From NCBI RefSeq assembly GCF_030253575.1, contig NC_080559.1:7964501-8028500 (forward strand): DNA of 64,000 bases. Reading direction: 5' to 3'. The DNA is from Rhododendron vialii (taxonomy: Eukaryota; Streptophyta; Magnoliopsida; Ericales; Ericaceae). A model generated the notes under the pieces. That model did not search any database and had not been told where the DNA came from. It saw only the letters and a program-made list of their open reading frames with translations. This document shows positions 12,500 through 64,000 of the stretch, piece by piece. Numbering within the stretch: position 1 is the first letter of the stretch; each line of letters begins with the position of its first letter. Position numbers and translations under genes: made by a program.

Positions 12500-13084
12500 A
12501 CTACTTAGCATTGTTTTTGGATGAAACAGTTTTTGTTTTTTTTGTGTGTGTAGTTGAAAAAATATCTCTAATCATGCTTTCTATAGAGACTGTAATTATT
12601 TGGGAACAACAAATATTTCGTAACCAATCCTGCATAACAGTTAAAAGGTTAAGGAATCAAGATCTGTTTTTCCAAATTATATCCCAAACACTATTTTACT
12701 GCAAAATCTATACGGCACTAAGCATCTAAATACAAGTTGAGTTTCATTCGCCCACCACTTAAGAGGATGAACATGATTCATAATATATTACTACTTCATT
12801 ATAACTCATATATACAAATCAAAATTTGCAATTTAAATTTTTTTAGCTCGTCAACGCCCCTGACTTATATGCCGATGTGACTAGGTCACATAATGCGCGA
12901 GCGTGAACGCGAACACAAGTTTGAGCATGAAAGCGTGTTTCAAAAACATCTCAAACTATTACATCCAAAACGATTAAAATTCGCGGGATTGAGAGCACGA
13001 ACATTGGGCGAGGATAATAAGAAGAAAAAAAAATGTGTTAATGCAATCCAGACGCCTCATCCATTATCTATTCAAAATCATCTC

Positions 13085-13119
<35 letters not shown>

Positions 13120-13130
13120 GTGGTGTTCCC
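12500..13130. other. CP33 upstream region with CT microsatellite in the leader
   Basis: No gene is seen before CP33. A (CT)n tract of about 38 bp at 13,081-13,119 ends about a dozen bases before the first in-frame ATG, so it probably lies in the 5' UTR. No confident TATA box was found. Confidence 0.5.
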
Positions 13131-13142
13131 ATGAGTGTCTCA

Positions 13143-16100
13143 ATGGCTGCCACTTCTTCTTCTTCAACCTCACTTCCTCTCCGCAGAAACCTCCTCCATT
13201 TCCACTCCGACTTCCACTCTCTCTCTCCAACCCCTAAACCCATAAAAGCCCTTAAACTCAAAACCCAATTCCCACATGCTCCTGCTTCGTCTCTCCTCTT
13301 TCGCTCCCTTCTCATTCGAGCTTCCGCCTACACTCAGCAACAAGAAGGATTCGGGCACCCAATAGAGCAAGAATATGAGGACCAAATTCAGACAGAACGT
13401 AGACTGTACGTGGGAAATTTGCCGTACTCAATGACTTCTGCTGAATTGGGCGAAATCTTTGGCGAGGCCGGTGTTGTGAAATCTGTGACGGTTTGTTTCT
13501 GGGTTATCCCTTCTGAATCGTGTTTCAAGAATAAGGTTTTTTTAGGTTTTTTTTAGGGTAATTTCAAGAATAAGATTTTGTTTCTGGTTATCCTTAGTCG
13601 AGGTGCACGAAAGTTGTTCCGGACACTGAGTTATCAAAGAAAAAAGATCAAGATTTTTTTAGGGTATTATGAACTTAAGAGCGTTTGGACTAAATAGTAA
13701 TTTTTTTTTTTTTAATCTTTTCGTCATAGGTTTTAGCTGCGGAATCAAAAAATACGAAAATATAGACTAAGAATGCTTAAGACACTACTGTTTTTTATGA
13801 ACATTTTTCGTTTCTAGGGACCATTTTTCATCTTTGGGCTATGTTTCTATACTGTTGGTCTATTTCTATTCTTTGCCAGATGGACAATTAATCCAAAAAA
13901 ATTTGATCCGAATGTAGTAAAAATTAAGAGAAAGTAACTAAAAAGACTTGGTCCGCTGAAAAGAAATTTAGACCAAAGGGGGCCGTTAAAGATTTTAAAT
14001 ATATTTGGTGTGATTTTTTTGTAAGGCATGCTATAGTTTTTCATCACTTTGTTAGATACACTATGAAATATCATTTTTATCAAGTGAATGGAATTTAGAG
14101 CATCCAGATTTCCTTAGGAACGACCTATAGAGGGGCTCTTGTATTTAAGTGCTACTTTATCTCCAAATAAGAAAAAATAAACCCCACAAAGTTGAGCTGG
14201 GAAAAAAAAATCTCTCTTCTGAAAGGTCAAATAAGCTGAGAAGTCAATTAAGTGATCAAAAGTTGCTATGAAACAGCATATTCCAGCCTTTTTTTAAAGC
14301 AAATAAGTTACCTCATAAGTATTGATTTTTGTATTGTTCGGCTATTGTGTTTTGTTTTAGATTGTGTATGATCGAGTTACAGATAGAAGCCGGGGGTTTG
14401 CGTTTGTGAAGATGGGTAGTGTTGAAGAAGCAAAAGAGGCAATTCGGATGTATGATGGATCTGTAAGTGTGTACATTCCATTCACGTTACCATCTGTTGA
14501 TTCACTCAGAAAATTTTATAATGTAGAGAAAGGCAAATGAACGAGTGGGAGTTTCATGTGTAACCCAATTCGTGGAATTTTGGAACCCTTTTCAGAAAAT
14601 TTCAAAAGCTAAAAATCCTATAATCCATGAGTTGTGAGTTGCCAATTAGGAAGTTTTGATAAACTACTGACAATAGGATAGATTTTGATACCTATGACCC
14701 TCTAATAACTTGAAGTTTTTCTAAAATGAGGAAATACAGGCGTAAGTTTTAACTTCAAGTAAAATGCTGCAGATTGAATTTGAATCCTGAGTGTGCCTCT
14801 TATATCCTTCCATGAAACAACTAGATTTCGCTGATATTGAACGTAATCTGTGTAATATAATGTTTTAAGAACTGCAATTTGTACTCATCAAGAAAGTGTG
14901 GGTTTGTGTAATTGATTTGTTTATATGTGTGCGGTTGCATAGCTAGTGTCTACCCATGTAACTGCATTCCGCTGGTTGGGCATATCCGGGCTTTCTTTTT
15001 GCAGGATCTTAATATGAAGCAAACATCTATGTCTTTCCCCATTGTTGATTGAAGGTCATGCATGTTTTTCTCACTTCACAGTTGATGCAGTACAATGAAT
15101 TTCCTGATACTTGATGGATTGATGCAATTCATTGATTCCTTTAATCCAGTAGACATCTGCATGCTGGATATGGGTTTTTTTTTTTACCTCCTTAGTGACT
15201 AATGAGCCCCATACCAGGTCTGGTTGCAACCTCATGCACTGGTATCTTGCATAAAACCACCCAAAAACACGGCTTTCCCGATCCCCTATGTTGGTGAAAT
15301 TCCTTCTGGAATTCTGGTGAACTTCGGTGCAATAGTGAATTTTTTTTTTTTCTAGAAAACTCCAAAAATTGAGCATCCTGAATCGGGCAGTGCGTCACTG
15401 GTAAATTGGGCTTGAAGGTTCTTGTACTTCAATAACTGTACCCCATTAAAATTCCTAGACTTTTACCGAAGTCTAAAGCATTACTTCAGATTCTCATCCC
15501 TAGTGTGGCAGTGACCTTAATCCTTGTACGTTACTGAGTTTTTGTTCTTTTTGTGGTTATTATTGGTAATGTTGGAAATGGTCACAGCAAATTGGAGGCC
15601 GAACAGTGAAGGTAAACTTTCCAGAAGTGCCAAGGGGAGGCGAAAGGGAGGTAATGGAGCCAAGAATACGAACCAGCGACCAAGGCTTTGTAGACAGCCC
15701 TCACAAACTCTACGCAGGAAACCTCGGTTGGAATATCACTTCCCAAGGGCTTAGAGAAGCTTTTGAGGGCTACCCAGGTCTATTAAGTGCCAAGGTCATC
15801 TACGACAGGGACTCTGCAAGATCTCGAGGCTACGGATTTGTAACCTTTTCATCTGCTGAGGAGGTGGAATATGCCCTCAATGCTATGAATGGAATGGTAA
15901 GACTAACATGGGCAGTATAACTTGCTCAGTTTGGACTCTCTTATCTTGTGTTAAAAGTATTATTTTTATTCTAAGTGGTATTTTTAAACTTCTGTTCAAG
16001 TTTTGTTTCTTTTCGACTTCTTGTCTTGTGCATAATGGCTTGTTTTTGGCTTTTCTATTTATTTTAAAATTTTCGGTCAAGGCTTTCAATTTTTCAAGAA

Positions 16101-29230: not shown

Positions 29231-32200
29231 ATGCAGTTTGATAGTCGTGACTCTGGTGGTGTAAATTTGGAAAGGTTTGTCTTCTCCGTGGGGGAAGCTT
29301 TGGTGGTGGGCACTCTGGAGATTGCTTTAGTTGCAGAAAATTGCCTATTTTGGCTCCTATCGGCAATAGGATCGCTACCAAATGATTTTTTTGCAGAAGT
29401 GTGGCAAAATGATCAGAGGTTTCCAATTAACGGAGCGAGAGAGCCTGACATTGAAAATGATGATGCTGGTAAAACGGAGGATGGTACTGTTAAAGATCAA
29501 TGTGATCATGATGACGAGAACAATGCCGATATGACTGAGCAAGATGGGAGTTATGATGGTGATGAGGATTCCGAGAATGAGGATGATAATGATGATAGTG
29601 GCGATCCGAATGGTGAAAGAGGAAGTAGTGATGGAGATGAGGGTGACGATGATGACGAGGATGATGGGTGCTCGGAAGATGACTACGATGAAGAGGATGG
29701 AGAAGAATACGAAGAGGATGAGGAGGGAGAAGGCATACCCAACAGACATTCTAAGAAGCACAAGTACTACATATTTCCTTTATGTCTTGCAAATAGACTT
29801 CAAACAACAAACACATTCCCATATGGTCACTTTTAATACACATCTATTCCTTAGAGAAAGCTAGCCTAGACTTCTATTCTTGCAGGGTAGCATATATTAT
29901 GTGTCTTTTCTGAGCTGTGGACAGTCATTATGCAGTGACTCAGCTGTTCCCTTGTCCCTTGGTATAAAGTTACAATAAAGAGAATGACTAACATAAAAAA
30001 TAAAACAATAAAAAAGGAAAACTATAGCATCACCTTATGTTTTCATGCTGGGACAATGTAATTAAGAATTATTTTAGTTGCGGTGAAGATTTAAATGACT
30101 CAAATTATTTAATGTCAAATCTCGTTCATTTGTTTGCCTTGCTGTTACATGTTATTTTTATCATGTACTTTAAGCCTGGTGTTCTATTAAGTGAAATATT
30201 TATGCTTATCCTGTACCAAGAAACTTATGCTATAACCGGCAACTCCCTGCTTATGCCATGACTATTTTATCGTCCATGTCTTTTGGGTCTAATCGATGCT
30301 TCTCTGTCATGAATTCTCTATGCAACTTGAGGTGCCACTATACAAGATCTGATTAGATTATGGAACTGTGATTTGTTGTCGAGCACATGTTTTACGGGGG
30401 AATTCCTCAAATAATGGACGCCAGTCAATTACGCTGCGTGATAGTAATTATACTGTGTTTTGAAGTTGTGGATGAAATTGTAAGCCAGTTTTACCTTGGT
30501 TTCACTCTGTACCTCAGAGGATGGTTATCTGGTGTTAATTTTCTTATTCAACTCGTTCTTTCATATACATGCTATTATGTCTTTGTGCATCTATAGTCAC
30601 TACTAGTTTTCAAAATTATTTTCAGTCGTTACTCTTATAAATGTCACAGGTTATTTAATTAGTCTTTGTTCTCATGGAAGGTCAGTGGATGGTTACAGTG
30701 ATGATACAACAGGTTCTGAATATGATGATGATACTGATGATGACCCTGGCTATGGTTCTTTGCTGAGGCATGCAAGAGAAGTCTACGCAGTAACCAGTTA
30801 TTGCCTATTTGAAAGTGAGTACAAGAAGACGAAAACTCTGTCTGTTGATGTCACCGATGAGGAAAGGTTCGTCTTTGACTACAAAGTTCGAAAGGATGGG
30901 CAATTGTTTAGAGAATACAAAGTTACTGCAGCGCCATTTGATGGCCTGATAAATTGTAGTTGCAAGTACTTTGATCTAGTTGGAATCTTGTGCTGTCATG
31001 CACTAATAGTTCTTGGATGCTTGCGGATTGAGAAGATTCCGGAGCGATATATACTGAAGTGGCGGAGGAAAAATGGAAAGGGTGGTACTGGAGAAGAAAC
31101 TCAGAGTCTCACAGACAACTACAAGGGACATGGATCGTCTTCAGATTTCATCCATCATAGTCGGTACGATTTTGTTTTGGTAAAATTGTTACTCCTTTCG
31201 GTCAACTGACTGATTTACCTTCACATGACATGCTATCATCCTCTCCTGTTCCATGTTAAACATTTAGTGTTCCTCATACGTACATATAACCTAAGCGGCA
31301 GTTTAATCAGGAGAATAATGTGTTTTTAATTAATTTTTCCCTCGTGATAATTGGTCATTAGGAAATTGAGATCTATCTGTGTGACAGTTGAAATTTTCCC
31401 ATAGTTTTCTCTATATTTTCTTGGGCTTTATGTTCTTGGTGGGTGTTTTGTCATGAATCTACTTGGTCAAATTTGTAGCTATTCGAGGTTAGTATAGGAT
31501 GTTGTACATGAAATTGCAGTTTTCGTACAAGTGATGGTTGCTACAGTGCTTTCTGTTCACAAATAGTGAAATAGAGGAGGGGGTATATTTCTTCCCAAAT
31601 AGTGTAAAATTGCATGTGCATCTGATGTCGGTTCTTCTAATGTACCAACCCCCAAAAAATTGATGTTGGTACTACCTCTTTGTTCCATTGCCTCGAAGAT
31701 TCTAATGCAAAGGAACTGTATTACTGTAATCGCTAATCACTGTTTTACATACAACTTAGCTTCAGGGCACAGCATTCTTGACACCCAGTAATGCCAATCA
31801 TTATGCATTTTCTAGTGACCCAAGGCATGGATATGAACTTTATAACTGTTTCTGGTCATTTGTGTTTCAACTTTTACCATTATTTTGTGGTTTGGTCATT
31901 TGTTTTCTTCTGAACTTGAAGGTTAATGGATACTGGCATTTTTCATCCAGTCCATTCTAAAGATGACTTGGACATGCTTACTAAACATGTTGATGCCCGT
32001 ATATTGAGGCGTCCTTTGGAAATGCCTATTGATGCCCGTCTATTGAGCCGTGGATTTTTCTCTTATATGCGAAGTGGTACAATGTCGCAAGAGGAAAATA
32101 AAAGATTGGAACATCTATCTGTTGACCCTGTCCATATGGATTTGGAAGAAAGAGAGCCTATGGACTCAAGATACCACGTTGATGCCCCTCTCCTAAGGCA

Positions 32201-33049
32201 TGCAAGGGACATTTATATGCCCAATATCTATCGTAAGTTTCGAGAAGAACATAGAGAATCAGAATATCTAGATGTTTTTATTAAGAATGACACTTTTGAT
32301 GATCATGGGCTAGCTTTTGATTTTGAAGTACTAAAGCCTGGACAATCCATATGCCATAAAGTTCATGCGGAACCAGATGATGGGGGTGTGAAGTGTAGTT
32401 GCAAAGGGTTTGAGAAAAAAGGTATATTATGTCGTCATGCACTATCTGTCATGGACCGATTATTTATAGAGAGGATCCCAGCTAAATATATCTTAGATAA
32501 GTTCGCGAAAAATCCAGGGGTTGGCATGGCAGAAGATATTCATGGAGAAAAATACTCTGAATTGCAACGCTTCGTCCGGTGGAAAACTTTGAATACCATG
32601 TATGATAGAATTGCACAAAAAGCTGCTAAATCTGATGCTACTCAAACTATATTTCTTGAGCATATGGAAAAACTACGAGTCATGTTGGGATGCTCGTCAG
32701 ATGAGGCCAATGAAGCCTCCATGAATGCATGTGCAGGGGAAGGTGATAGGGATATGAACGGTCTGGGGAGCAGAAATGCTATTGAGGACAAGGCAATGAA
32801 GAAAGCTAAGGGCTTGAATTATGGTCAAAATCTTATGCAACCCAATGCTGAGGAATTGGAGGCAAAATGGGGTCAGCAATCTGCCACTAGTGGTCATATT
32901 TCTCAGGTAGCAATTTCATCAAGATTATGAGATTAAATAGTGAATTCACCAAGTCCCAATGTATTTTTCCTCATATTTTATTCTTCCTCCCCCTTCTTGG
33001 TGAGTGTTTGCTCAGTGTGAATTTATTTTTGATGTTTCAGCCTGAATAA
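29231..33049 (+). CDS. tandem SWIM zinc-finger protein related to FAR1/MULE C-termini
   Basis: Four coding exons: 29231-29763, 30681-31163, 31922-32906 and 33041-33049, with matching phases at all junctions and a final exon encoding only PE and stop, giving 669 residues. The N-terminus has a hydrophobic stretch (about 19-60), then a strongly acidic Asp/Glu region (about 76-170). Two related modules follow, each opening LLRHARxxY and ending in a CxCx(9)CxH SWIM finger: C270, C272, C282, H284 and C497, C499, C509, H511. Such fingers occur in FAR1/FHY3 factors and MULE transposases, but neither the FAR1 DNA-binding domain nor a transposase core is present. The phrase VDARILRR, IDARLLSRG, VDAPLLRHA repeats before finger two. 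DNA or protein binding is likely from the family; the actual role is unknown. The 5' exons and start are the least certain part. Confidence 0.8.
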
Positions 33050-36464: not shown

Positions 36465-39217
36465 ATGAACGATCTCTTCTCCAGCTCCTTCGCTCGGTTC
36501 CGGAGCGAAGACCAGTCTCCGCCCCACAGTACCGTCCAGATGTCCGGCTTCCCTGCGGCGGCCACCTCCGGCGTCAACCTCGACAAGTTCTTCGAAGACG
36601 TGGAAGGCGTCAAGGACGACCTGAGGGACCTCGAGACGCTGTACGCCAGCCTCCAGGCCGCCCACGACCAGTCCAAGACCCTGCTCAGCGCCAAGGGCGT
36701 CCGAGACCTCCGATCCAAGATGGACGGCGACGTCACGTCGGCGCTGAAGAAGGCCAAGGTGATCAAGGTCCGTCTCGAGGCGCTGGACCGGAACAACGCC
36801 GCGAACCGGAGCGTGCCCGGGTGTGGGCCGGGGAGCTCCTCGGACCGGACTCGGACTTCGGTCGTCAACGGGCTCCGGAAGAAGCTGCAGGTAAGCAAGG
36901 AGGGAGCTACCGAGAGGCAACTGGACTTGTAGACCCCACTTTATTGAGATCAATTGGCTAGGGTAACTTTTACCCACGGTGGGGTATGTTGGGAGTATCG
37001 AATCGGTAATCAGAATCGTTTATTTTGTAAAAATTGATTTGATAGGAGATGGTGCGAAAATTCAGCTCAATCTAATTCCGGCAAGTATTTGATCACGTAG
37101 CTACCGGTATCTACGGGTATCTGATTGAGTTGAATGTTTGTGGATTCTCTTGACAAATCAGTTCCTACAAAGTGCAAATTACTGAATCGAAACCCGCAAC
37201 GTGTCTTAACGAATGTGGGTAAAATTCGTTTGGATGAACAAAATTGCTTTCCGTTTTACTACCATTTGGCTTTTCAATAAAAACTAATTATATGTTGCAC
37301 TCGATATTTGCTATTTTGACCCTACAACAGTTTTTATTTCGTCCTAAACTTGCCATTGTTCTCGTTTTGGCCCCACGAATTCAAAATTCTGACTGTCTCT
37401 GGCTGCAGGACTCGATGAACTCGTTTAATGATCTGCGGGGGAGGATTGGATCGGAGTACAAGGAAACGGTGCGGCGGAGGTATTACACGGTGACGGGAGA
37501 GAGCGCGGACGAGTCGGTCGTGGACCGGCTGATATCGACGGGGGAGAGCGAGACGTTTTTGGCAAAAGCGATACAGGAGCAGGGGAGGGGGAAGGTTATG
37601 GATACCATCATGGAGATTCAGGAGAGACACGAGGGGGTTAAGGAGATTGAAAAGAATTTGAAGGAGCTTAACCAGGTACCATACATACACGTACATTCTT
37701 ACATTCGAGTTTAAATGACCCTTTCCAAAAGTGTTTTTGTACCTTTTACGTGCAATTTCAGCTACAAGATTGAGACTCTAATTGGTATGAATGTGTTTGT
37801 TCGATTCTTTGACTAAAATTGCACGGGCGGCACCAAATAGGTCCGTGATAGGACCTATTTCGTACTAGCTAGTACAAAAGAAAGAGTTAATGGATTCATT
37901 TCTTTTTAAAATTGGACGTTTTTTTTTATGCCATTGGACTTCCTATTCTTAAAATAAACGTTTGTGATGATGAACGTTGTGCAGATTCTTTTCTATCATT
38001 ATCGTTTCGAAAAGCTTGTAGCATTGGTCCTAATAAACTTTCATTTGTTGCTTGGCTTCTTCATTGGACGTAATATGTTGTTAGTACTATTCGCTAAACC
38101 TCTCGATAAAATTTAATCACAAACATCCAACCGTATTTGTCTCCCGTGTACGTGATAGAGATAGAGCAGTTGATATTCCTAAATTAAAAAATAATTGTGC
38201 ATCATTCGAATAATTAATCTTTTTGATGTATTCTATAAGACTCACTTTAGATTCCAAAAAGTTCAAAGCTGGCCACGTAACGAAGAAAGAATTTTCTTCG
38301 TCACACAGTTTGTTCTCTTCGTTTAGATGGGTCGATTGCGGCTGCCCAAATGTACTATATATCTCAGATCATCTTTCTCAAACACTATAAAAGTCCAAGC
38401 CATAACGGATGAGGTGTTGTAAAATTGCTTTGATAGCTGGTCCTTTTAGGTTCTTCAGTTTCAATATCTAATTGCTTTGATGTATATATGGCTTATTGCT
38501 GCCTCCAACCCCGAATCATTCTTTCATCCTTTCGGCCCGACAATTTTGACACTTTATTTGAGTTCCAGGGTCTACAGGCCGATAAAATAATTTTAACCTA
38601 GCCGTAATTGTTCGTGTATTAGCGGATGATATATATATAACATACACATGTGGTGTAAGCGCTTGTGTCGACAATGCATTGCCACTCGAAATTAAGATAC
38701 TGGATTTGGTTCCTTTGTCTTTCCCCCTGAATTATGCCTTAAGACCGGGTGTCAGATGGGGTCACGAGCATTCACTTTGTTCAGCTCAACGATCTGACTA
38801 TGGAGAACCTTAGCGTAGATCCTTTCACTCATCTTTTTTTGTGACCATCATATGATGCAAAATAGGATCCGTTGTACGAGACATTTCGAGCGATGCATTT
38901 TATAGGTCTCAATGTGTTTATGAGCTGTGCAAAAAATCAAGTTATGGGTGACAACATTCTAAAAGTTACACAATCTTGATTTATATGTCTAGGTGTTTCT
39001 CGACATGGCGGTGCTGGTGGAGGCGCAAGGTGAACAAATCGACGACATAGAGAGCCAGGTGAATCGGGCCAGCTCCTTCGTTAGGACAGGAGCCCAGCAG
39101 CTGGAGGTTGCTCGGAAGCACCAGAAGAATACCCGCAAGTGGACTTTCATTGCCATTGTTATCCTCCTCATTATCATCCTCTTTGTGGTTCTGTTCTCTG
39201 TGGAGCCATGGAAATAA
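36465..39217 (+). CDS. SYP122: plasma-membrane Qa-SNARE syntaxin, SYP121/SYP122 type
   Basis: Three coding exons, all phase 0: 36465-36890, 37409-37675 and 38993-39217, giving 305 residues. SYP12 syntaxins drive fusion of secretory vesicles with the plasma membrane and take part in focal secretion during defence. The N-terminus MNDLFSSSF is typical of the group. The Habc bundle fills exon 1 and early exon 2. [18 protein letters not shown] is a conserved linker. The SNARE motif spans the exon 2-3 junction with the zero-layer Gln at Q243 ([13 protein letters not shown]). A single C-terminal anchor (about 283-301) ends in PWK. Family members usually carry a longer tail after PW; a small deletion created an earlier stop here. 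Exon 1 is GC-rich compared with the rest of the window. SYP122 is chosen over SYP121 mainly from gene order, so the symbol is tentative. Confidence 0.9.
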
Positions 39218-51260: not shown

Positions 51261-52133
51261 GAACAAAAATTGAACGAAAACAAAAAAAAATATTACAAAA
51301 CAAAGTAATTTAATTGGAGAGGAGAAAAACATAATTGAATATCCTACCATGTCACCTGTGTGTGCACCTAGAAAAAACATAATGAAAAACTTGAACAAAT
51401 ATTCAATTCCAGCCTGAATTATTCCTCCACCACCACCTTCTTCTAGTGCCAACGCCGATTCGACCACGACGCCGAGACTAGTTCAACTCACTTCTCACCG
51501 CCATCGGTACCACCACCCGACGCCTTTCGTCCACCGCCGTCCAGTCCTCTCGCCAACACCTCCATTTTCGGTTGACGTGGGAAATGCTGGCACCTCCATT
51601 TCCGATTACTTCTGTGGGCAATCAGATTACTTCTCCTCCACAGAAAAATTTAGCAACACATCCTCCTCCACCTTCATTGACGTCTTCAACACCGATCGGA
51701 GACCTCGACGATGGCAACTCCAACAAGTTCTCCACGCCCTTAGCGGCGACCACAACCACAATCCAAATCCAGCGCCTCCTCCGCTGCCGTTATTGTACTG
51801 GTGTCCGATCATGAGGCCGAAGTTTTAAATGCGTGCCGGCGTCGGGAAATTGGAGCCATTGGAGTGAAGAAATGACCAAGTGCCCATTCTGTCGCATCGC
51901 CGTTGTCCATGTAAATCCGAACGGCAGATGGTGTTTCGGTGTCGGGCCGCTGACCGGAAATGCATTTGAACGAGAAATGGATTCGATGTTGGGCCACTGA
52001 CCGGAAATGGCACAGTTCTCTGGCCACGTTATCTACTTCCCGATCTTCGCCACCTGTTCCGAGAATCTGAACAGTTGGTGAGCTCCTTCAATTCTCTTGT
52101 GATCTCGGCAAAGCAACACACACACCACGGATC
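51261..52133. other. GC-richer stretch with no assignable gene
   Basis: Overlapping open frames on both strands (51,570-52,030) have Pro/His/Thr-rich translations but no known motif. CCACCACC/CACCGCC phrases suggest low complexity. Possibly the inside of an unrecognised element. Confidence 0.35.
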
Positions 52134-52475
52134 CAATGAGGGATTCCTTACCAGTCTACAGTGCGGACCTCCCCTTTCCCGATCGAATTGCGACGATCCG
52201 AGCCGCTCAATGTGTTCAGAACGTGATTTTAAGGGTGCTCGCGAGAAATCAGCCAAAAAAAATGATCGGGAAGGGCTTAATCCGAGCAGTTTTTACTGAA
52301 CCGTTCAATAAAAACTGCTCGGATCAAGCCCTTCCCGATCATTTTTTTTGCTGATTTCTCGCAGGTACCCTTAAAATCACGTTCTGATCACTTTGAGCGG
52401 CTCGGATCATCCCAATTCGATCGGAAAATGGGAGTCCCGCACGGTAAACCCGTGAAGAATCCCTCAAGGGAACCG
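52134..52475. mobile_element. long fold-back element
   Basis: Near-complementary arms of about 165 bp meet at 52,296-52,308, with a 13-base spacer. The inner pair is CGAGCAGTTTTTA/TAAAAACTGCTCG, the middle pair GATCGGGAAGGGCTTAATCC and its complement, and the outer pair GAGGGATTC/GAATCCCTC. The inner about 100 bp pair almost perfectly and the outer parts less well. No target duplication could be fixed. It is probably a MITE or other hairpin-forming sequence. Confidence 0.75.
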
Positions 52476-52659: not shown

Positions 52660-52826
52660 GATTTATTGGCTTATTTTTGTCTTTATTCAAAAAAAATTAG
52701 ATTTTGATCGTAATTTTTTACTTTTTAAATTCCTTTCGTCATGACAAAGCAATAATTCTCAAAAAATCGACGAAAAATTAACAAATGCAAAAAAAAATTG
52801 AATAAAGACAAAAAAAAGCCAAATGA
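52660..52826. repeat. hairpin of about 165 bp
   Basis: ATTGGCTTATTTTTGTCTTTATTC at the left pairs with GAATAAAGACAAAAAAAAGCC at the right. The phrase ACTTTATTTAGCCGAATGAGG just after it recurs at 53,666-53,686, past the next MITE, which suggests one older element or a duplicated flank. Confidence 0.6.
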
Positions 52827-52851
52827 CTTTATTTAGCCGAATGAGGCCTAA

Positions 52852-53616
52852 GAGCATCTACAGTGGAATAAGCAAAATAAAAAATTGTTAAAGTTAGTAA
52901 TGTTGGATAAAAAATGTGCTCACATTGGAATAACCAAACCTAACAACCTCTTAACAACTCATCAAATTTTGGTTCTTCAATAATCAAAACTAGCAATATT
53001 TTGTCAATAACCAAATTTTATCTCTCAATCAAGTACACCAACATTACACAAAAATATTCTCTCTCTTTCTCTCTCTCAACAATGTTTTCAAAAAATAATT
53101 TTAAAAAACTTTCAGATTTTTTTCTGTTTTTTTTTCATAAACTTTTTTTTTACAAAAAACAAAATTTTCAAAAATTTTAAAAATTGTAAGTAAATAAAGT
53201 GTGTTTTTCAAAAAACTGTTTTTGAAATTTCAAAACTCTTTTATAGAAAACTGTTTTTAAAAAACTGTATTTATAGTTTTTAAAATTTCAAAATTATTTG
53301 TGTAAATACAATTCTTTTAAAATTTCTCAAAATTGTATTTATAATTTTTAAGTGAACAAAGTGTGTTTTTTGAAAAACTATTTTTTTTAATTGTTTCTAA
53401 CATAAACTGTTTTTTTTCCTTCAAAAACCGTTTTTTCAAAAAATATGCGCGAAATGACGGGAAAAAGTTTGGAGAGCCCATTAGTTTTGATTATGGGCAA
53501 AAAATAACTAATGTGGGATTTGATATTATTAACTTTAGCAACCTCTAAATGGATAATCAAAATCTGATGTGGCATGTTTTGATTATTCATATTTGCTTAT
53601 TCCTCTACTGATGCTC
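52852..53616. mobile_element. Harbinger/Tourist-like MITE with TAA duplication
   Basis: GAGCATCTACAGTGGAATAAGC at the left and GCTTATTCCTCTACTGATGCTC at the right are inverted, with TAA at 52849-52851 and 53617-53619. It is 765 bp long, very AT-rich with TTTTTCAAAA phrases, and has no transposase. Its ends resemble those of the 310-bp element at 27024-27333 (GAGCATCT), so they may be one superfamily. Confidence 0.83.
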
Positions 53617-53697
53617 TAAGTACTTAAAAAATAAATTGAGAAATGGTACTGTGCAATGGTGTTGTACTTTATTTAGCCGAATGAGGCGTAAGTACCA

Positions 53698-54145
53698 TAC
53701 CAAAATGCTGATTATTCAACACCATTATTTTAACCGCAAGATTCTCCGCCCGGATTGTCGCCAACTCCTAGACATTCATCATAAAACTCCCATCTCCATC
53801 GATGTCAACAACAACAGAATCAGGTCTGGCAACAGCGGCTCCCATTGCAGTAGGCAATCCAAAACCCATAGCCCCGAATCCGCCAGAAGTAAGCCACTGC
53901 CCTGGCCTACTGTACTTGTAAAATTGAGCAGCCCACATCTGATGCTGCCCGACAGCCGTACTTATTATCTCGTTCCCATTCGATAACTTGTACAGGACCT
54001 GAATTGCATACTGGGGTGGAATGGCATCACCAAAGGTCTTAAAGGTCAACGGGTGCTGAATTTTCTGCTCCTTTAGCTCCTTCCATGCAGAAAAATCAAG
54101 CTTGAGCTTGCCTCTTTTACCCTCCAAAACCTTCTTCATACCTTT
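53698..54145 (-). pseudogene. ALS: acetolactate synthase fragment D (C-terminal part)
   Basis: Minus-strand translation gives [68 protein letters not shown] and [14 protein letters not shown], unmistakably the catalytic subunit of acetohydroxyacid synthase including the thiamine-diphosphate motif. The conserved Gln codon after MNV is TAG (53768-53770). Homology continues past this stop ([14 protein letters not shown]) and breaks off at about 53,698. The enzyme makes acetolactate for branched-chain amino acid synthesis in plastids; this copy cannot. Confidence 0.92.
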
Positions 54146-54816
54146 TGTAGCAGGCCGAACACATAACTTCACTGTGGTGTGGGCCGAGCATAGCTCGTGT
54201 CAGTCCAAAACCTTGTGCACGGCTCCCGTCCTTATTCTTCATCGTCACCCCACTTGCCGCAGGCTCGGCTGATTATCGGCCCGTGCTCGGCCATTCCCTT
54301 GCAACGTGCCCTCTCCTATCGGTCGCGTGCCAGGGTCGGCAGGGGCGTGCTCGGCCACCCGCGGAGCATGGCCGCTACCAACGACGGATGGCTATTGAAT
54401 CACGCGTCTTCCCACGCGCAAAAGCGGTTATAACGGAAGATGATCATGGGCGCACATGGGTGTGACGACTCGACCCTAAAAACGATTACCAGATCTATTC
54501 GGTGACGTCACGGTGAGATCACCCGACCCGCGCGAGGCACGTGCCTGTGCTTGGAGAACAAGTCAGGGGGACTCTATAAATATTGAAGGATATAACGCCT
54601 CTAGAAAGGTACGCACTCATACACGCGAATTCCCACTCAAAACCCTAGTCTCTTTCCTTTCTTCATGCACATACTTATCCTCTCGCCGGAGGGCCTTGCC
54701 GGGCAGCCTCCGGCCAGGTCTTAGTCATGCGCTCACTGTGCAGGCTACGTGGAGAAGGCTAGGAAGCCACTGAACCAGCGGAGGAAGGACTCGGACCAGA
54801 TATCACGGGCCACACA
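54146..54816. mobile_element. solo LTR (671 bp) inside the acetolactate synthase copy
   Basis: Ends TGTAGCAGGCCG and GGGCCACACA show the TG..CA form. A perfect CCTTT duplication lies at 54141-54145 and 54817-54821. Removing the element and one CCTTT joins the synthase frame. It is GC-rich and contains CTCTATAAATATTG near 54,570, a likely LTR promoter. No second LTR or interior remains. Confidence 0.85.
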
Positions 54817-55111
54817 CCTTTCAATGCAAATTTCACATCCCCACAAATCGACACATGGGGTTGCTTATTCTTCCCTATCTCAGCTGAATCAATATCGATA
54901 TGAACAATCTTAGCTCTGCTAGCAAAAGCTTCAAGCTTCCCAGTCACGCGGTCATCAAACCTGACCCCAAAGACAGGCAACAAATCGCTACTATTCACAG
55001 CATAGTTGGCATAAACTGTACCGTGCATTCCAAGCATTCCAAGAGACATATCATCCGCAATCGGGTACGCCCCAAGACCGATTAAAGTACTCGCGACCGG
55101 AACCCCGTAAG
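54817..55111 (-). pseudogene. ALS: acetolactate synthase fragment C
   Basis: Minus-strand frame: [68 protein letters not shown] and [15 protein letters not shown]. This is the middle domain of the enzyme in an open frame. It is bounded by the solo LTR on one side and the hAT-like element on the other. Confidence 0.92.
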
Positions 55112-55743
55112 CAAGGATGGAACCAGGGGGGGTCTAGTGGCGGCGGCCGCCACGTCAAGAATTTTAGAAAATGTAATTATTATATGTGACAATTTTTTTT
55201 ATCCCCAACTTATATAATCTTGCCACTGCTAGGTTTTTTTCCTTATTTTTTTTATTACATTCTGGTCATAAATCTTCTATTTTTTTTTTCAAGAAAGGAG
55301 ACTCAAAAAAGTATTTCAAAACTAAATTCAATGGGCCAAAGTGAAATAATATAAATGATGATGTGTAATTAAGAAAAAAAATTCCACACTCTAACCCTAA
55401 AACAACTGAACCTAAAAAATTAAGAAAATTTAATTATTATGCCATTATCAATGCCCAAAATTAAAATTAGTCATTTTTCATACTCCATGTGTAAATGACA
55501 AACATCATTTAGTTTAGTTTTTGTTATGTTATTTTTTTTTTGGAGCCAATAACTATTAATAGTGCAATGCATTTTTGTATTGAGGATCAGTCTTTACGAA
55601 CTTTATCTCGACTTTAATTGAATCCCCGCTAATAAACAGTGGATGAGATCTATCTCCAAATTAGTCGTTCTATTAGGTTGGATATCGAGTCATGCAGAAA
55701 AATGAGTCTTCAAGCCTGCATAAGGAAATTAATGAGTACAAGG

Positions 55744-55780
<37 letters not shown>

Positions 55781-57326
55781 TAGAGATTTTCCAGTGCTTC
55801 GGGAACACAACCACGTGGATATTCTTGTATTCTTTATTTAGTTTACTTTTGCTTGAACCCAATCAAATCTACGACTATGACTATGCAACCAAAACTAATG
55901 AGCTAACCAAGATTAAGAGTGATCAATCTGATTCAAATATTGCCAGGTTCATTAGAAAACATTATTTGGAGACAGCTATATTCCTTACTTTTTGTAATCA
56001 CGTATATCTCAGTGTCTCGTGCCACTTTTAATTAATTAGTTGGAGATAGATTCCTTAAATTGTCTTTCGAGACCATTCCAACTATAACATTCATAAGATC
56101 GAGAATTAAGAACCAGATCAGAAGTTACTATGGGAGGATTTCTTGACCTGGGAATTATCTTGCTGACAAGTACGTATGTGTACTATTCAAATAGTCTTGG
56201 TCTCTCTTTTTGGTTTCATTTAATTGAGAATGATGGTTTGGTGTCTAATGAGAGAATATTATCAACTTATTGTTGAACGAGGGAATCGAAAAGGATTGAA
56301 TGAAATTCATTTCCCACTGAATTAGTAGGTCCCCACTTTATCAGCTCCCCACTTTATCAGCTGGTGGCAAACAAGGGCCTCATACGTTGTTATTGAAGCT
56401 GACTGCAGAAGTCTTCACTGAAAGTCTGCTAAAATAAACAAAAGAAATGTCTCAAATGCACATTGAATGAGCTTATCCTCACACAGTCATTCTCGTATTT
56501 GACAAGGATTGTGTGTGGAATTTTTTTGCTCAAATCCAATATTGGAAGACTCTGCACTTCATTAATTTGTTTTTTTGTTTGTTTGATTGATTGAAGATTC
56601 GTCCATTTGGATTGGAGAAGCCAGTAAATGTTTTTTTTTGTGTGGAAATTAGTATTTTGCGAGACTTGATTTAAGAGAGAGTTTTTGTAAAGAGTTTTTG
56701 ATTGCACTTTTGGTGAGAGAATTTATAATAAATGGCCATACACTATAATATTGCATCATTATAATGTATGACCTATAATGACTTGCACCAGCTAACATGC
56801 TAACCAAGGATGGAACAACGGAGGTCTAATGGCGGCGACCGCCATGACAAGAATTTTAAAAAATGCAATTATTATGTGACAATTTTTTTTTATCCCCAAC
56901 TTATGTAGTCTCGTCACTGCTAGGTTTTTTTCCTTATTTTTATTATATACTAGTCATAAATCTTATATTTTTTTTCATGAAAGGAGATCCAAAAAAGTAT
57001 TCCAAAAATAAATTCAATGGGCCAAAGTGAAATAATATAAATGATGATGTATAATTAAGAAAAAAATATTCCACACTCTAACACTAAAACAACTTAACCT
57101 AAAAAAATTAAAGAAATTTAATTATTATGTCATTATCGATGCCCAAAATTAAAATTAGTCTTCTTTGTACTCCATGTGTAAATGACAAACATCATTTAGT
57201 TTTGTTTTTGTTATGTTCTTTTCATTTTTTCTGAAGTTGATGACTATTAATATTGAAATACATTTTTTAAAATTTTTTTAGTATACATTTCGCCACTGCT
57301 AGGGTAAAATCCTAGTTCCGTCCTTG
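55112..57326. mobile_element. hAT-like element (2,215 bp) with 8-bp duplication
   Basis: Ends CAAGGATGGAACCAGG and CCTAGTTCCGTCCTTG are inverted. A perfect CCCGTAAG duplication lies at 55104-55111 and 57327-57334, in the synthase sequence. The 8-bp duplication and CAAGG end suit hAT. A block of about 460 bp at the left end is repeated directly at 56,806-57,280, again starting CAAGGATGGAAC, so the element contains a nested or duplicated end. The 1.2-kb middle has (TA)n(CA)n near 55,745 and no transposase. Confidence 0.85.
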
Positions 57327-57509
57327 CCCGTAAGCTCGACAAACCTCCTCAACTCCTCACTCGAATTCAAACACCCACCACCCACAGACAAAACTGGTTT
57401 TTTCGACTCCAATACAAGCCTAACAACTTGTTCCAAATAAGTCTCTTCAGGCTCTTTAGGCAATCTAGCCATATCCCAGGTAACCTCATGGGCTGATCCC
57501 AATTGGTAC
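57327..57509 (-). pseudogene. ALS: acetolactate synthase fragment B
   Basis: Minus-strand translation gives [39 protein letters not shown] and RRFVELTG. Near its upstream end the conserved [10 protein letters not shown] lies in another frame, and one base appears lost within the GY-M codons (about 57,475). So this piece has at least one frameshift besides the insertions. Confidence 0.9.
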
Positions 57510-58681
57510 TGATAAGTGCCAAAATATACATATTTTGGCCCTTCAATCTACATTTATTAGTCCTTTATTTTTGTTAACTGTTTTTTTTATTATGTGTTTT
57601 TATGTTTATAGGTTGCTCGAGTCCGTTATCTAAGACTTTGGCTAAAAAGAAGATTTTAAAGAAGTTTGGGATTCAAATGCGAAGTGATTCAAAACTGAAT
57701 GGTTCATATGTTATTTTATGAAATCCAAAGGACCTTTGTGTGATTTAAATCCTCAATCCCTTTATAAGCAATTGACCTACTGCTTCAGTAGGTAGCAGCC
57801 CGTGGAGAAAAAAAAGGAAAAAAAGCGGTCTTCTGGCAGAAAAGAAAAGCTGCGCATGAAGCAGTAGCGGTACGACAGCAGTTTCGATTTTTACTTGACA
57901 GCTTTAGATTTCTGTTCTTCTTTTCAGAGCTCTTTTTTTACCTTAAGTCTTGAAGCTTTATTCAAATTACTCGCACTTTGGTAATTAATTTTAATTTTCG
58001 TTCTTCATTAAAGTTATTCGATTGTTTTTGTTTGGTTTGGATCTCCTGTTTATTTTTCATTTCGAGTAATTGAAGCATGTCTCAAATTAGGGTTTCTTTT
58101 GTTTCTTTTTTTAATAATGAGTGAGTAGACGTATGGGTAGGGTTGCGGGGTGATTAGCACACCATAGCCAGTTCGGACACTGCTTCTATTTTCAAACAAT
58201 GTAAAAATGATTTAACATAGGAGAAATACTTCCCGCGGACGAACTCGGGCATTGTCGGAGCCTATGTGAACGGGAGAATGGGGGTCCAAAACTCATTCTC
58301 CGTTGCGCATGGATAAACGGCGACCATAGGGTTTCGCATTTTGCGGGGTATCTTTTCTAATCTTAAATTGAACATTTTTAAGAACATCGAATGGAGCAGG
58401 TTATTCTGGACTGGTTGCGAGTGCTATGAACCCTACAACCGTACCTTTCTTTTAATTATTTGAAAAGTACAATCAATTTTTAGATTTTTGTAATCTCAAT
58501 CAAATCAACAAGGGGTGGCTACCTGAGAGCCTATTTAAATTATAACAACCCGAATTTTTAGTCAGCACACATTACCGTCTTTGTGGATTCGACTCCGGAC
58601 TTACCGGATATTATGCTGCATCGGTCTCCGCCCTACGCTTGGGGCAACCCATTATTTTAGGTCTAGGAAATCGGTCAAGCA
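57510..58681 (+). repeat. 5' LTR of the gag-only element
   Basis: 1,172 bp. CCTTTATAAGCAATTG near 57,768 is a likely TATA region. I saw no mismatch to the 3' LTR in reading both. Confidence 0.92.
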
Positions 58682-58685
58682 TTTT

Positions 58686-58703
58686 TGGCGCCGTTGCCGG
58701 GGA
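58686..58703 (+). other. primer binding site, tRNA-Asp
   Basis: TGGCGCCGTTGCCGGGGA is complementary to the 3' end of plant tRNA-Asp(GUC), as I recall it, over all 18 bases. It lies four bases after the 5' LTR. Confidence 0.88.
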
Positions 58704-58798
58704 CGGTAGCGTGTGTTAAGAATTCGGGTAGTTATTTTTTTTTATTTTTTTTTTAATTTATTTTTTATTTTTTATCGTTGAAAAGCAAAAAAAAAAAA

Positions 58799-59977
58799 AT
58801 GGCCCATTTTGCGGGGAGGTATGGAGGTTATGCAAAACAATTTGATTGTTCAGTGTCGCTTCCTATATTTTATGGTTTTGCATCAGAAAATCATTTTTCG
58901 CATGTTCATAAACTTGAGGAAGCTTTTGCTAGTGATGAAGTGGCTCTTTTACATGTATTCCCAGCATCTTTGCGTGATAGTGCTCTAGATTGGTTTAATT
59001 GTTTGAGTCCAAGATTGACATGGGGTGAGATTGTAATACAATTTTTTAATCATTTCAATCCCTCATATGAGACTCACATGCTTTTACAAGAACTATCAGA
59101 TTTCTCTCAACATGATGATGAGTCTTTGTCACAGTGTTGGGAGCGATTTAAATTTGTTGTATTCTCTTGGACGTTTAATTGTGAGCTTGGCAGTCTTCTG
59201 GTTATCTTTTGCCGTGGTTTAAACTTTAAGTCATGCGAGGTGGATTTTAGGTCCACTGACGAATTTCTGGATAAAACCCCTGAAGACGCTTGGGATTTCT
59301 TAGATGAATTAACCCAAAAGCTCCAATTTAGTGAGTTGACCAAAAGTTCTGAGGATACCAATTTTGATGCCAGAGAAAGAGAGGAAATAGAGTCACTTCC
59401 TGAGGATATTAATTCTGATGCGGGGGAAAAAGAAGAAATAGAGTCACTTCCTAAGAATTCTGATGCGAGAGAAAAAGAGAAAATAGAGCTGCTTGTCATT
59501 AGTGAAGGCTATATGCCTTTTGAGGAGTCATTGCCTATAGTTGCACTAGATTATATGCCTTTTGAGGAGACATTGTCAATAGTTGCACGGAATAATCCAG
59601 TACTCTCAGCTCTAGATTGTGCCACCCCTGTTTCTGAATCTCCACTTTTGCAAGAGTTTTTAAATGTGGAGCTGATTGATTTTCTTGGTGTTGATGAATT
59701 TAATTTAGTTTATCATCCATATCTTGTGGATTTTGTCAACAATTTGAAAATTAATCTAATTTGGGCTATACATTTGTTGGAATTTAAATGTCTAAAACGA
59801 ATTCGGCAAATGTGCTACTCGAAGTATCTTATCTTATGGTATGGTCGGGTTCAATACTTGATAAAAGGTGTAGAATGGAGCGTTATGTTCATTGTCTTAG
59901 CTTTCATTGGCATGATAAATGTTCGGTACCCACGTTTGGCTGCTTATACTTTTTTTTTTTTTTTTGGTCTGGTATAG
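58799..59977 (+). CDS. gag-like protein of the gag-only retrotransposon
   Basis: 392 residues from the ATG at 58,799; the frame opens seven codons earlier but without ATG. A retrotransposon gag core is recognisable in the first third: LPIFYGF, HKLEEAF, HVFPASLRDSALDWFN, WGEIVIQFFNHFNPS and ESLSQCWERFKFVV. The middle carries internal repeats: three of the type EKEEIESLPKNSDA and two of YMPFEESLPIVA. No CCHC zinc knuckle and no protease motif are present. The frame ends in a run of Phe encoded by a T tract, so the C-terminus may be altered by slippage there. It would form particles with a helper's pol proteins. Confidence 0.78.
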   Translation: MAHFAGRYGGYAKQFDCSVSLPIFYGFASENHFSHVHKLEEAFASDEVALLHVFPASLRDSALDWFNCLSPRLTWGEIVIQFFNHFNPSYETHMLLQELSDFSQHDDESLSQCWERFKFVVFSWTFNCELGSLLVIFCRGLNFKSCEVDFRSTDEFLDKTPEDAWDFLDELTQKLQFSELTKSSEDTNFDAREREEIESLPEDINSDAGEKEEIESLPKNSDAREKEKIELLVISEGYMPFEESLPIVALDYMPFEETLSIVARNNPVLSALDCATPVSESPLLQEFLNVELIDFLGVDEFNLVYHPYLVDFVNNLKINLIWAIHLLEFKCLKRIRQMCYSKYLILWYGRVQYLIKGVEWSVMFIVLAFIGMINVRYPRLAAYTFFFFFGLV

Positions 59978-61931
59978 CCACCCGTTTCTCGCTTGAGAAA
60001 TGGGAAGAAAAGTAGTACTCGTGTCTTTCGCGTGAAGAAAGTGAATGTTTTTTTTGTATTTTATTTTTCTTTCTTACCTTGTTTATTTCTTTTAGTTATT
60101 TTTCTTGCTGTTTTGGAGGCTAACATTTTGCAGGTTGTTCGATTCAAGTTGGGGGGTTTCCCTCACTCTCTAATTTACTCTGCTTAGCCCTCCTTTCCGA
60201 GGTGATATCTCTCCTCTCTTTTTTGTTTATGTCCGATCTTTATTTATTTTTATTTTTTTTATGCTTTCAATGCGGACATTGAATAGTTCAAGTTGGGGGG
60301 AGGAATCACTTTGTTCTTTATCTTGTTAATAAAAAAAAATTTAAAAATTAAAAATACTTGTTGGATCTTTTCTACTTGAGACTTGAAGATTGCAATGTTT
60401 ACTTGTTGGTTGCTAGTGTTGAGAATTGTTGGGCATTACTTGAATATGATATTGCATGTTAGTTCTTTTTGCTAACTTGGCGATAGAAATTTATTCTGGC
60501 ATACATTCTTAGCATCTTTACATTGCACGTTTGTTGGACCTTGACTGTTTGTGAGTTGTGACTTGAGTGCTTTCAATGGCTAGATTAGTGGAGACTTACG
60601 CCCATGTGAGCTTTAGTGCCTTATCTTTCTTTGGAGTGGTGTCACATAAACTCTTCGTTTGTCGTAAAAAAAAAAAAAGAAAGAGAAAGAAGCTTAATCG
60701 TTGTCGATCTCATTATCTTTGTCGTCAAGTATTGGGACTTAATGCATGCCTATTATATCTTCTTTTGGGAATGGAAAGTTATATGGTTGTATTGCCCCTA
60801 GGAGATGATAATAGGCCATCTTTGCTGATTGAGCCGGTTCGTTTCTTTTTCTTAAATACTTATCTTTGCGAGCCACATTGAGCCTCTTGCATGAGCCTTT
60901 TTCTTGTTAAGCTTTACCAACCAAATTGTGTCTTGAGAATGGCGAGCTAATCATGTGAAGATTAATTTTTGAAGAGAATGGAGGAAGTGTATTTGAGAGA
61001 GTTGTGCTTGAAATGTGGTGTATTCTTTCCCATAGCTAAAAATAAAAAAAATTGAGAAAATAGAAATAAAGAAAAAAAAATAGAACTTGAATGAAAAAAG
61101 GGAAGACACCCTTGCATTTGTTTGAAAAAAGAAACGTGTGAATTTCACTGGGGAATTGTGTGAAGGGTGAAAAATAAGAGAGATGTGGCGGAGTTGAAAA
61201 GAATGATAAGAGGGTACACATTGTTACACTTGCCCTATGTTGTTATAGCCGATTCTCGGACACTTCTTTATGATTTATCCTAACCTTTGAAGCACTTTTC
61301 CTTACCCAATGATATGACCGAATAAAAGTCCTATTTGATCTTTGGGGCAATGGGTTATGGATCGATGGATAGATAGTCTTTAATGCTTGACATTCCTTTC
61401 ATGAAGATCATGTGTCTACCTTAAAAAGCTTTCTATTCGTGTCTAAGTGTGCTGGGTACTTTGATTCTTTATTGCAAAACTTTCGCCCGCACACATTGAG
61501 AGTTTATTAAATGCACCTTGTTTCGAGTGTTTTCTTTTGTTGAGTGCATGACACGGTGAGAATTGAAGTCGAGACTCGGTCCGGAGAGAGTACTTGGTTG
61601 TGGTTCACTTGTGGTTAAGGTCTTTGCTCACACACGCTAAGGTTTGGTGTCATGAATTATTTCTATGTTTTGATAGCCTCTAGAACTATTTTCGCATATG
61701 CTATATTCTTGGCATTGGCGTATCAAAGAGTTGCATTGCAGTTCCTTTTTGAGTTCCAAGTAAAAGGATCCACGGTGTTTTGTGGATGATCACTGCTGAA
61801 AATCCTCACGAGACTTCACTCGTCCTACCGGGGCCACCCGGGGGTTTAAAAGATCTATCCCTTAGTCAGTTGTTTTATTTATTTATTTATTTTCTTTGCT
61901 CGAGGACTAGCAAAGTGTAAGTTGGGGGGTG
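59978..61931. other. non-coding interior of the gag-only element
   Basis: About 1.95 kb without a credible long frame. AAGTTGGGGGG occurs at 60146-60156, 60290-60300 and 61919-61929; only the last is adjacent to the 3' LTR. Confidence 0.7.
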
Positions 61932-63103
61932 TGATAAGTGCCAAAATATACATATTTTGGCCCTTCAATCTACATTTATTAGTCCTTTATTTTTGTTAAC
62001 TGTTTTTTTTATTATGTGTTTTTATGTTTATAGGTTGCTCGAGTCCGTTATCTAAGACTTTGGCTAAAAAGAAGATTTTAAAGAAGTTTGGGATTCAAAT
62101 GCGAAGTGATTCAAAACTGAATGGTTCATATGTTATTTTATGAAATCCAAAGGACCTTTGTGTGATTTAAATCCTCAATCCCTTTATAAGCAATTGACCT
62201 ACTGCTTCAGTAGGTAGCAGCCCGTGGAGAAAAAAAAGGAAAAAAAGCGGTCTTCTGGCAGAAAAGAAAAGCTGCGCATGAAGCAGTAGCGGTACGACAG
62301 CAGTTTCGATTTTTACTTGACAGCTTTAGATTTCTGTTCTTCTTTTCAGAGCTCTTTTTTTACCTTAAGTCTTGAAGCTTTATTCAAATTACTCGCACTT
62401 TGGTAATTAATTTTAATTTTCGTTCTTCATTAAAGTTATTCGATTGTTTTTGTTTGGTTTGGATCTCCTGTTTATTTTTCATTTCGAGTAATTGAAGCAT
62501 GTCTCAAATTAGGGTTTCTTTTGTTTCTTTTTTTAATAATGAGTGAGTAGACGTATGGGTAGGGTTGCGGGGTGATTAGCACACCATAGCCAGTTCGGAC
62601 ACTGCTTCTATTTTCAAACAATGTAAAAATGATTTAACATAGGAGAAATACTTCCCGCGGACGAACTCGGGCATTGTCGGAGCCTATGTGAACGGGAGAA
62701 TGGGGGTCCAAAACTCATTCTCCGTTGCGCATGGATAAACGGCGACCATAGGGTTTCGCATTTTGCGGGGTATCTTTTCTAATCTTAAATTGAACATTTT
62801 TAAGAACATCGAATGGAGCAGGTTATTCTGGACTGGTTGCGAGTGCTATGAACCCTACAACCGTACCTTTCTTTTAATTATTTGAAAAGTACAATCAATT
62901 TTTAGATTTTTGTAATCTCAATCAAATCAACAAGGGGTGGCTACCTGAGAGCCTATTTAAATTATAACAACCCGAATTTTTAGTCAGCACACATTACCGT
63001 CTTTGTGGATTCGACTCCGGACTTACCGGATATTATGCTGCATCGGTCTCCGCCCTACGCTTGGGGCAACCCATTATTTTAGGTCTAGGAAATCGGTCAA
63101 GCA
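61932..63103 (+). repeat. 3' LTR of the gag-only element
   Basis: 1,172 bp, same length and order as the 5' LTR with a constant offset of 4,422. Confidence 0.92.
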
Positions 63104-63298
63104 GGTACCACCAATTGTTGCTGTAGATTTTTCGGCACATCAATCAAAACCGGACCAGGACGGCCTGAACGAGCAAGGAAAAAAGCCTCTTTCACAATCC
63201 TAGGAATATCCTCTGCATCTAGAACAAGATAATTGTGCTTCGTAATAGGCCTAGTTACCTCAACAATTGGGGTTTCTTGAAAAGCATCGGTACCTATC
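63104..63298 (-). pseudogene. ALS: acetolactate synthase fragment A (most upstream piece in window)
   Basis: Minus-strand frame: [53 protein letters not shown] and KNLQQQL. It is open and well conserved. Its upstream edge stops exactly where another LTR begins, so the N-terminal half of the gene, if it survives, lies outside the window. Confidence 0.92.
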
Positions 63299-64000
63299 TG
63301 TTTATGCCTATTTTTGGAACATAATCTCGGACCAGTGCTAGAGGGCCATTTAATTAGATACTAATTAAATTGGGTCGAGATTTACAAGTTTCTCGGGCTA
63401 AAAATTAGTGGGTCATATTAATTTTGTGATCTGAAGCAAGGCTCAATTAATTAAAGCCCAAGTGAAGCGAGATACGCCGAATAATCTTCCATGGAAGTTT
63501 TTATTCGGAGCTTTAGAAAAAAAATGAAGGCAACAGGCAAGTGATTGTTCTAAAAGTGGAGTGGCCCACGAGCCACGATGCAGGAGCAATTAGGTTTTTA
63601 CTTGGAAGTTACAAGTAATTGTGGACACTTGGCATCCAAAGAGCAAAGGAGGGAAGTTATTTGCCAAGTCATGGGATACTTGTCAACATACAAGAAACCC
63701 ACTCCCTGTGATCTCACTCTTCCACAATTCGGGCTGCTTCTTTGCTCTTTTCTGCACAACCTTGGAGCCTATATATAACAGAATCGAAGATAGAAAAAGG
63801 GTTCAACACCAATTAAAACATAGCGCTTAAAAACATTTTTCTATTTTCAACAAAGTAGACTATCGAGTACCTCGTGCTCAAATCTCATTCGAACTTACTT
63901 CTTTAAGTAGTTTGAATTTTACTTTTCTTGTACCACTTTATTATCCCGGTATAATAAAGTTTACGTTTTATATTTTACGCATTTCCTATACGACTAGAAA
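63299..64000. mobile_element. partial LTR of another retrotransposon, running off the window
   Basis: TGTTTATGCCTATTTTTGG starts immediately after the synthase bases. CCTATATATAACAG near 63,768 looks like a promoter, followed by U5-like sequence with CTTTATTATCCCGGTATAATAAAG. No second end is visible. The call rests on the TG start, the abrupt junction and the LTR-like layout. Confidence 0.6.

Follow-up and report, generated by a model that had tools for sequence, protein, structure and literature searches.

How does a gene for acetolactate synthase (ALS) come to lie in separate pieces among transposable elements, when did it cease to work, and which gene serves in its place? These questions are raised by a stretch of 64,000 nucleotides of the Rhododendron vialii genome (C3:7964501-8028500 on contig NC_080559.1, hereafter the window), in which the original prediction placed an ALS gene dismembered by nested insertions. 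In this analysis, we concluded with high confidence that the locus is an old ALS duplicate that was long constrained, then became functionless and decayed, with four insertions lying side by side in it and an intact ALS gene on a different chromosome, contig 8, as the likely supplier of the enzyme. It is a case of ordinary pseudogene decay that is unusually easy to read, the odd point being that the same C-terminal segment was lost more than once among the duplicates.

The contig-8 ALS (653 amino acids, aa) was used as a tblastn query against the window and 59.8 kb to its right, and five collinear minus-strand pieces of one ALS were recovered. The local alignments, which run slightly past the true piece borders, placed aa 1-186 at 64776-64222, outside the window, aa 184-250 at 63303-63103, aa 247-260 and 264-310 at 57516-57326, aa 310-411 at 55106-54801, and aa 373-555 at 54232-53690 (positions counted from the first letter of the window). 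The N-terminal piece carries the start codon and occupies C3:8028726-8029276 on the minus strand, just past the window edge and beyond the insertion E4. It is followed on the same strand by the pieces 63104-63298, whose first 5 bp are the second GGTAC and whose last 5 bp, CTATC, are the first copy of the E4 duplication; 57327-57509, whose first 8 bp are the second CCCGTAAG copy; 54817-55111, whose first 5 bp are the second CCTTT copy; and 53698-54145, which corresponds to about codons 405-553 of the contig-8 ALS and is possibly 4 bases longer, reaching 53694. These last four had been predicted as collinear parts of one plant ALS, and their order and strand in tblastn together with the exact duplications bear this out. 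The predicted coordinates match the element borders to the base, while the fifth, N-terminal piece was missed. In total, the window copy has collinear similarity to known ALS over about codons 1-554 of the contig-8 gene, and its N-terminal frame is open for 240 codons. It is not a complete frame with the C-terminal thiamine-binding part, being interrupted by four inserts (9,402 bp in total, against about 1,654 nt of coding sequence left) and by a TAG at codon 529, and no codons after about 554 were found.

All four elements (4/4) have perfect target duplications, and their borders are exact. Each gap between the window pieces holds one element with its own duplication (E1, CCTTT; E2, CCCGTAAG; E3, GGTAC), as had been predicted, and to these three a fourth has to be added, E4 at 63299-64220 with the duplication CTATC. 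The elements are arranged side by side with ALS sequence between them and none lies within another, which contradicts their description as nested.

E3 is a long terminal repeat (LTR) retrotransposon of 5,594 bp on the plus strand (57510-63103), with LTRs at 57510-58681 and 61932-63103, TG...CA ends and a 5-bp duplication. It contains the motif TGGCGCC, which we take to be primer-site-like, and a gag open frame of 399 aa on the plus strand (58778-59977; PF03732, E 7.5e-8). No polymerase family, as expected of an autonomous element, was found in its seven other inner frames of at least 60 aa, the length from which inner frames were scanned, and one weak zf-P11 match (E 0.063) fell below the cut-off. 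We regard E3 as a gag-only non-autonomous LTR retrotransposon (TR-GAG).

E2 (55112-57326, 2,215 bp) is a hAT-like non-autonomous DNA transposon with an 8-bp duplication and 16-bp terminal inverted repeats that contain 2 mismatches (CAAGGA.GGAAC.AGG). Both fetched copies of its family (2/2, on contigs 4 and 8) have 8-bp duplications of their own, AGCATAGG and CGTGGGGT. An 8-bp duplication and short inverted ends are typical of hAT-type non-autonomous transposons; because no transposase family was found in the two E2 frames scanned, the element is labelled hAT-like only. A direct repeat of about 0.45 kb lies inside E2 (55128-55576 and 56820-57267, spacing 1.69 kb), and some relatives elsewhere in the genome seem to hold tandem units of about 187 bp.

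E1 (54146-54816, plus strand, 671 bp, TG...CA) is flanked by CCTTT at 54141-54145 and 54817-54821, and E4 (plus strand, 922 bp, TG...CA) crosses the window edge, with 63299-64000 inside the window and its end at C3:8028720. Relatives of E1 recur in the genome as pairs about 11 kb apart, and five of the 12 forward-strand relatives with flanks have the same sequence after the LTR, like the 5' LTRs of full elements (14 relatives were fetched, and the two on the other strand were omitted from the flank comparison and the tree). Relatives of E4 are paired about 3 kb apart, and one fetched element of this family has two LTRs of about 920 bp with GAGAT at both sides; the E1 pairs are seen through coordinates and flanks, and the only full element fetched is of the E4 family. 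Because their relatives are paired or have two LTRs, and because E1-family flanks are shared, E1 and E4, each a single LTR with its duplication, are read as solo LTRs, which would have arisen by recombination between the LTRs of full retrotransposons. The LTR ends of the fetched full element align to E4 and the middle of E4 (85-488) does not, so E4 may belong to another subfamily.

The presence of an intact sister elsewhere had been postulated, and the whole genome was searched for it (532,647,506 bases in 13 contigs). The 21 protein matches comprised 16 from six ALS-like loci, five of these from the window locus, and five others at 25-30% identity, which are other enzymes or remote relatives. 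Among the six loci in 532.6 Mb, only the contig-8 gene (C8:30019454-30021412), a single open frame of 653 codons, is full-length and undamaged; its residues 71-653 align with the chain of a solved chloroplast ALS, and none of the three TPP_enzyme domains is missing. Because the other four sister loci carry deletions, stops or frameshifts, we infer that the enzyme is probably supplied by the contig-8 gene.

Two of the damaged sisters, C3b and C3c, lie on the plus strand about 10 kb and about 46 kb to the right of the window copy, making a three-copy cluster. C3b (C3:8039507-8041384) is an open paralogue of 626 codons with a 51-nt in-frame deletion from about base 1674, equivalent to 17 codons beside the conserved QWEDRFY segment. 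The tryptophan of QWEDRF (contig-8 residue 557, presumably the herbicide-site Trp574) is replaced by arginine in C3b, and other residues conserved with the solved chloroplast ALS are also altered. C3b, the best of the tandem sisters, is a doubtful supplier of the enzyme, because 17 codons of the conserved segment are gone though the frame is open; it may be annotated as an enzyme all the same. C3c (C3:8074879-8076564) and the copy on contig 13 (C13:14966127-14967661) are divergent ALS-like copies that have in common an 81-nt deletion from about base 1658; C3c also has a stop at codon 477, the contig-13 copy also has frameshifts, and the second contig-8 copy has stops and frameshifts. In trees built from codons 85-552 and from each half separately, the window copy stands beside C3b with weak support (57/48, 39/3 and 71/81, respectively). 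It never falls within the contig-8 pair or the C3c/C13 pair, both of which are supported at 96-100. The pieces behave as a single gene, whose closest paralogue is perhaps C3b.

Smaller lesions accompany the insertions. The predicted in-frame TAG (53768-53770, codon 529) and the frameshift near 57475, a 1-nt deletion at codon 261, are both real, and to this account of the damage the loss of the C-terminal 100 or so codons has to be added. Two more 1-nt deletions adjoin insertion sites, one at codon 250 beside E3 and one at codon 309 beside E2, and 3 nt are deleted at codon 423. At the 3' break, ALS homology ends at 53698-53694, which is base 1657-1661 of the contig-8 coding sequence. Beyond it lie a non-ALS stretch of about 75 bp (53617-53693) and a repeat of about 765 bp (52852-53616) resembling a miniature inverted-repeat transposable element (MITE), with ends GAGCATC/GATGCTC, TAA at both sides and matches over the full or near-full extent in 14/14 fetched copies. 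A 27-nt direct repeat surrounds the MITE-like repeat (52826-52852 and 53666-53692, 26/27 identical), and its second copy is contained in the non-ALS stretch. The 22-nt core of this direct repeat had no match in 100 shuffles of the window and has two exact copies in the genome, both at the 3' break, besides 10 other sites with 2 mismatches. A known repeat was rejected as the source of the stretch, since the core has no exact copies elsewhere in the genome; the stretch may be templated filler or part of a repeat. A large inverted repeat also lies near this end of the pseudogene (52128-52475; 134-nt arms 84% complementary, inner 48-nt pair 96%). For the last 100 or so codons, tblastn found no ALS piece in the 53.7 kb of the window further left, and the whole-genome protein search (21 matches from 22 candidates scored) found no detached C-terminal piece, with matches to this part only in the contig-8 gene, C3b, C3c and the damaged second contig-8 copy. 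The C-terminal end of the window copy was therefore probably deleted.

When did the copy cease to work? Over codons 86 onward, pairwise nonsynonymous and synonymous distances (dN and dS) of the window copy were 0.072 and 0.440 to the contig-8 gene, 0.083 and 0.353 to C3b, 0.194 and 0.521 to C3c, 0.097 and 0.511 to the second contig-8 copy, and 0.197 and 0.496 to the contig-13 copy, and the contig-8 gene and C3b were separated by dN 0.059 and dS 0.396. With a dS of 0.35-0.44 to its two nearest full relatives, the window copy is an old duplicate. A codon model with a separate omega (dN/dS) per branch (453 codons) gave 0.099 for the contig-8 gene, 0.251 for C3b and 0.261 for the window copy. An omega of 1 was rejected for the window copy (twice the log-likelihood difference, 31.6) and for C3b (21.2), and so was equality with the contig-8 gene (7.5 and 5.7, respectively). 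Read as a final neutral stretch, the excess of omega takes up 0.18 of the window-copy branch (95% range 0.05-0.35), and the neutral distance since constraint was lost is 0.036 (0.010-0.054) substitutions per site, both from 240 bootstraps. Relative to the duplication, constraint was lost recently, and the fairly recent loss suggested by the original prediction agrees with this omega model.

The two better-bounded insertions can be set against this distance, in a comparison of ages that is rough because mutation rates may differ between elements and coding sequence, and in which E3 is dated directly and E2 only bounded. The LTRs of E3 (1,172 bp each) have 0/1,172 differences, which puts the divergence of each LTR at no more than about 0.0013 per site (95%, Poisson). 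At substitution rates of 0.65-1.3e-8 per site and year, the age of E3 is under about 0.1-0.2 million years. E3 is very young, much younger than the loss of constraint, and because its LTRs are identical it probably struck an already dead gene. E2 has 37 private changes in 2,190 columns, an age bound of at most 0.017, and is probably younger than the loss of constraint. The history is thus readable to the extent that E3 is dated, E2 is bounded, and both fit insertion after constraint was lost; nothing can be read from nesting.

From these results, a highly probable course of events can be proposed. An old duplicate of the ALS catalytic-subunit gene, standing in a three-copy cluster, evolved under purifying selection during most of its existence and then lost its function. 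Four independent insertions entered the coding sequence: two LTR retrotransposons later reduced, probably by inter-LTR recombination, to the solo LTRs E1 and E4, the hAT-like E2, and the very young gag-only E3. E1 or E4 may have shared in the loss, and E2 and E3 would have come after it. Point decay (the nonsense codon, three 1-nt deletions and one 3-nt deletion) and the loss of the last 100 or so codons complete the picture; the two 1-nt deletions beside the E3 and E2 sites may or may not have arrived with those insertions. Several points weigh against this course of events. Identical E3 LTRs could also reflect gene conversion or assembly. The age of the lost constraint is wide, and 8% of the bootstraps fall below the E2 bound, which makes the order of death followed by E2 likely but unproven. 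The ages of E1 and E4 are not fixed, the E1 end branch of 0.085 (tree of 12 forward-strand relatives) being a weak upper bound, and the grouping of the window copy with C3b (57/48) is weak.

Within the proposed decay of an old duplicate, it is tentatively possible that one of the solo LTRs, E1 or E4, itself killed a working gene. The branch omega shows long constraint before the loss, and, judged by its end branch, E1 could have been inserted as early as the loss itself; however, neither element is well dated, and the first blow could just as well have been the nonsense codon, one of the small deletions or the 3' loss.

Some of the damage recurs among the sisters, and this was noticed after the fact with no comparison with chance. 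The TAG at codon 529 is common to the window copy and the second contig-8 copy, which are not sisters, and is most simply explained by a C-to-T change that arose twice independently. Four of the six ALS-like loci lack 9 nt at codon 333, within an LGMLGM repeat, and slippage is the simplest explanation. Sequence from codons 553-579 is lost in the window copy, C3b and C3c/C13, with breakpoints near bases 1661, 1674 and 1658, each uncertain by a few bases. We consider it improbable that ALS duplicates of this lineage repeatedly lose the QWEDRFY stretch after codon 552 as a rule, at a break hot spot or by selected loss, with C3b possibly kept for a non-catalytic role such as that of a subunit partner; such a role could be considered because C3b is still open and its branch omega is well below 1.

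Continued function of the window locus, such as that of a split gene, of one spliced around its damage or of a producer of small RNAs directed at its paralogues, is very unlikely. The N-terminal frame of the locus is open and its three 1-nt deletions add up to one codon, but the C-terminal end was not found in the window or the genome, a nonsense codon is present, E3 alone adds 5.6 kb, and omega is raised on its branch. Least credible is an origin of the pieces from different ALS copies joined by rearrangement: at sites where C3b and the contig-8 gene differ, the three 5' pieces side more often with C3b (48:35, 19:13, 12:8) and the two 3' pieces do not (11:14, 17:17), but both halves of the gene are placed alike in the trees, and collinear order, strand and exact duplications link each piece to the next, so different paralogues were rejected as the source and the predicted single paralogue was upheld.

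Elsewhere in the window, two frames with SWIM zinc fingers (PF04434) at 30685-32930 are perhaps FAR1/MULE-type transposase-like genes, syntaxin-like exons (PF00804 in two frames) lie at 36465-37714, and a frame at 13035-13556 has the start of an RRM domain (PF00076).

The decay of the old ALS duplicate offers a clean worked example of the decay of duplicate genes, in which four different insertions are present and the interval from lost constraint to the latest insertion can be measured. The presence of a single full-length undamaged ALS in 532.6 Mb is useful to annotators, as open damaged copies could be miscounted as enzymes. Because E3 is so young, some individuals or the other haplotype may lack it, in which case it could serve as a simple presence/absence marker. 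Judged by titles and the beginnings of abstracts, literature searches on ALS pseudogenes with transposable elements, tandem ALS families and Rhododendron ALS found nothing that describes this locus.

Compared with known systems, the window locus is collinear with its working paralogue, a plant ALS (acetohydroxyacid synthase) catalytic subunit, over about codons 1-554, and differs from it in four elements, one nonsense codon, frameshifts and the absence of the last 100 or so codons. E2 and its two fetched relatives share 8-bp duplications and CAAGG... ends with hAT-type transposons, and E2 differs from these in having no recognised transposase (two frames scanned) and an internal direct repeat. 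E1 and E4 share with solo LTRs the TG...CA ends, the 5-bp duplication, the absence of an internal part and the paired or two-LTR relatives, the difference being that E4 85-488 does not align to the single full element fetched. E3 shares with TR-GAG elements the two LTRs, the primer-site-like motif and a gag frame (PF03732) with no other domain recognised in seven further frames; with the superfamily level left aside, E3 has no notable difference from these elements.

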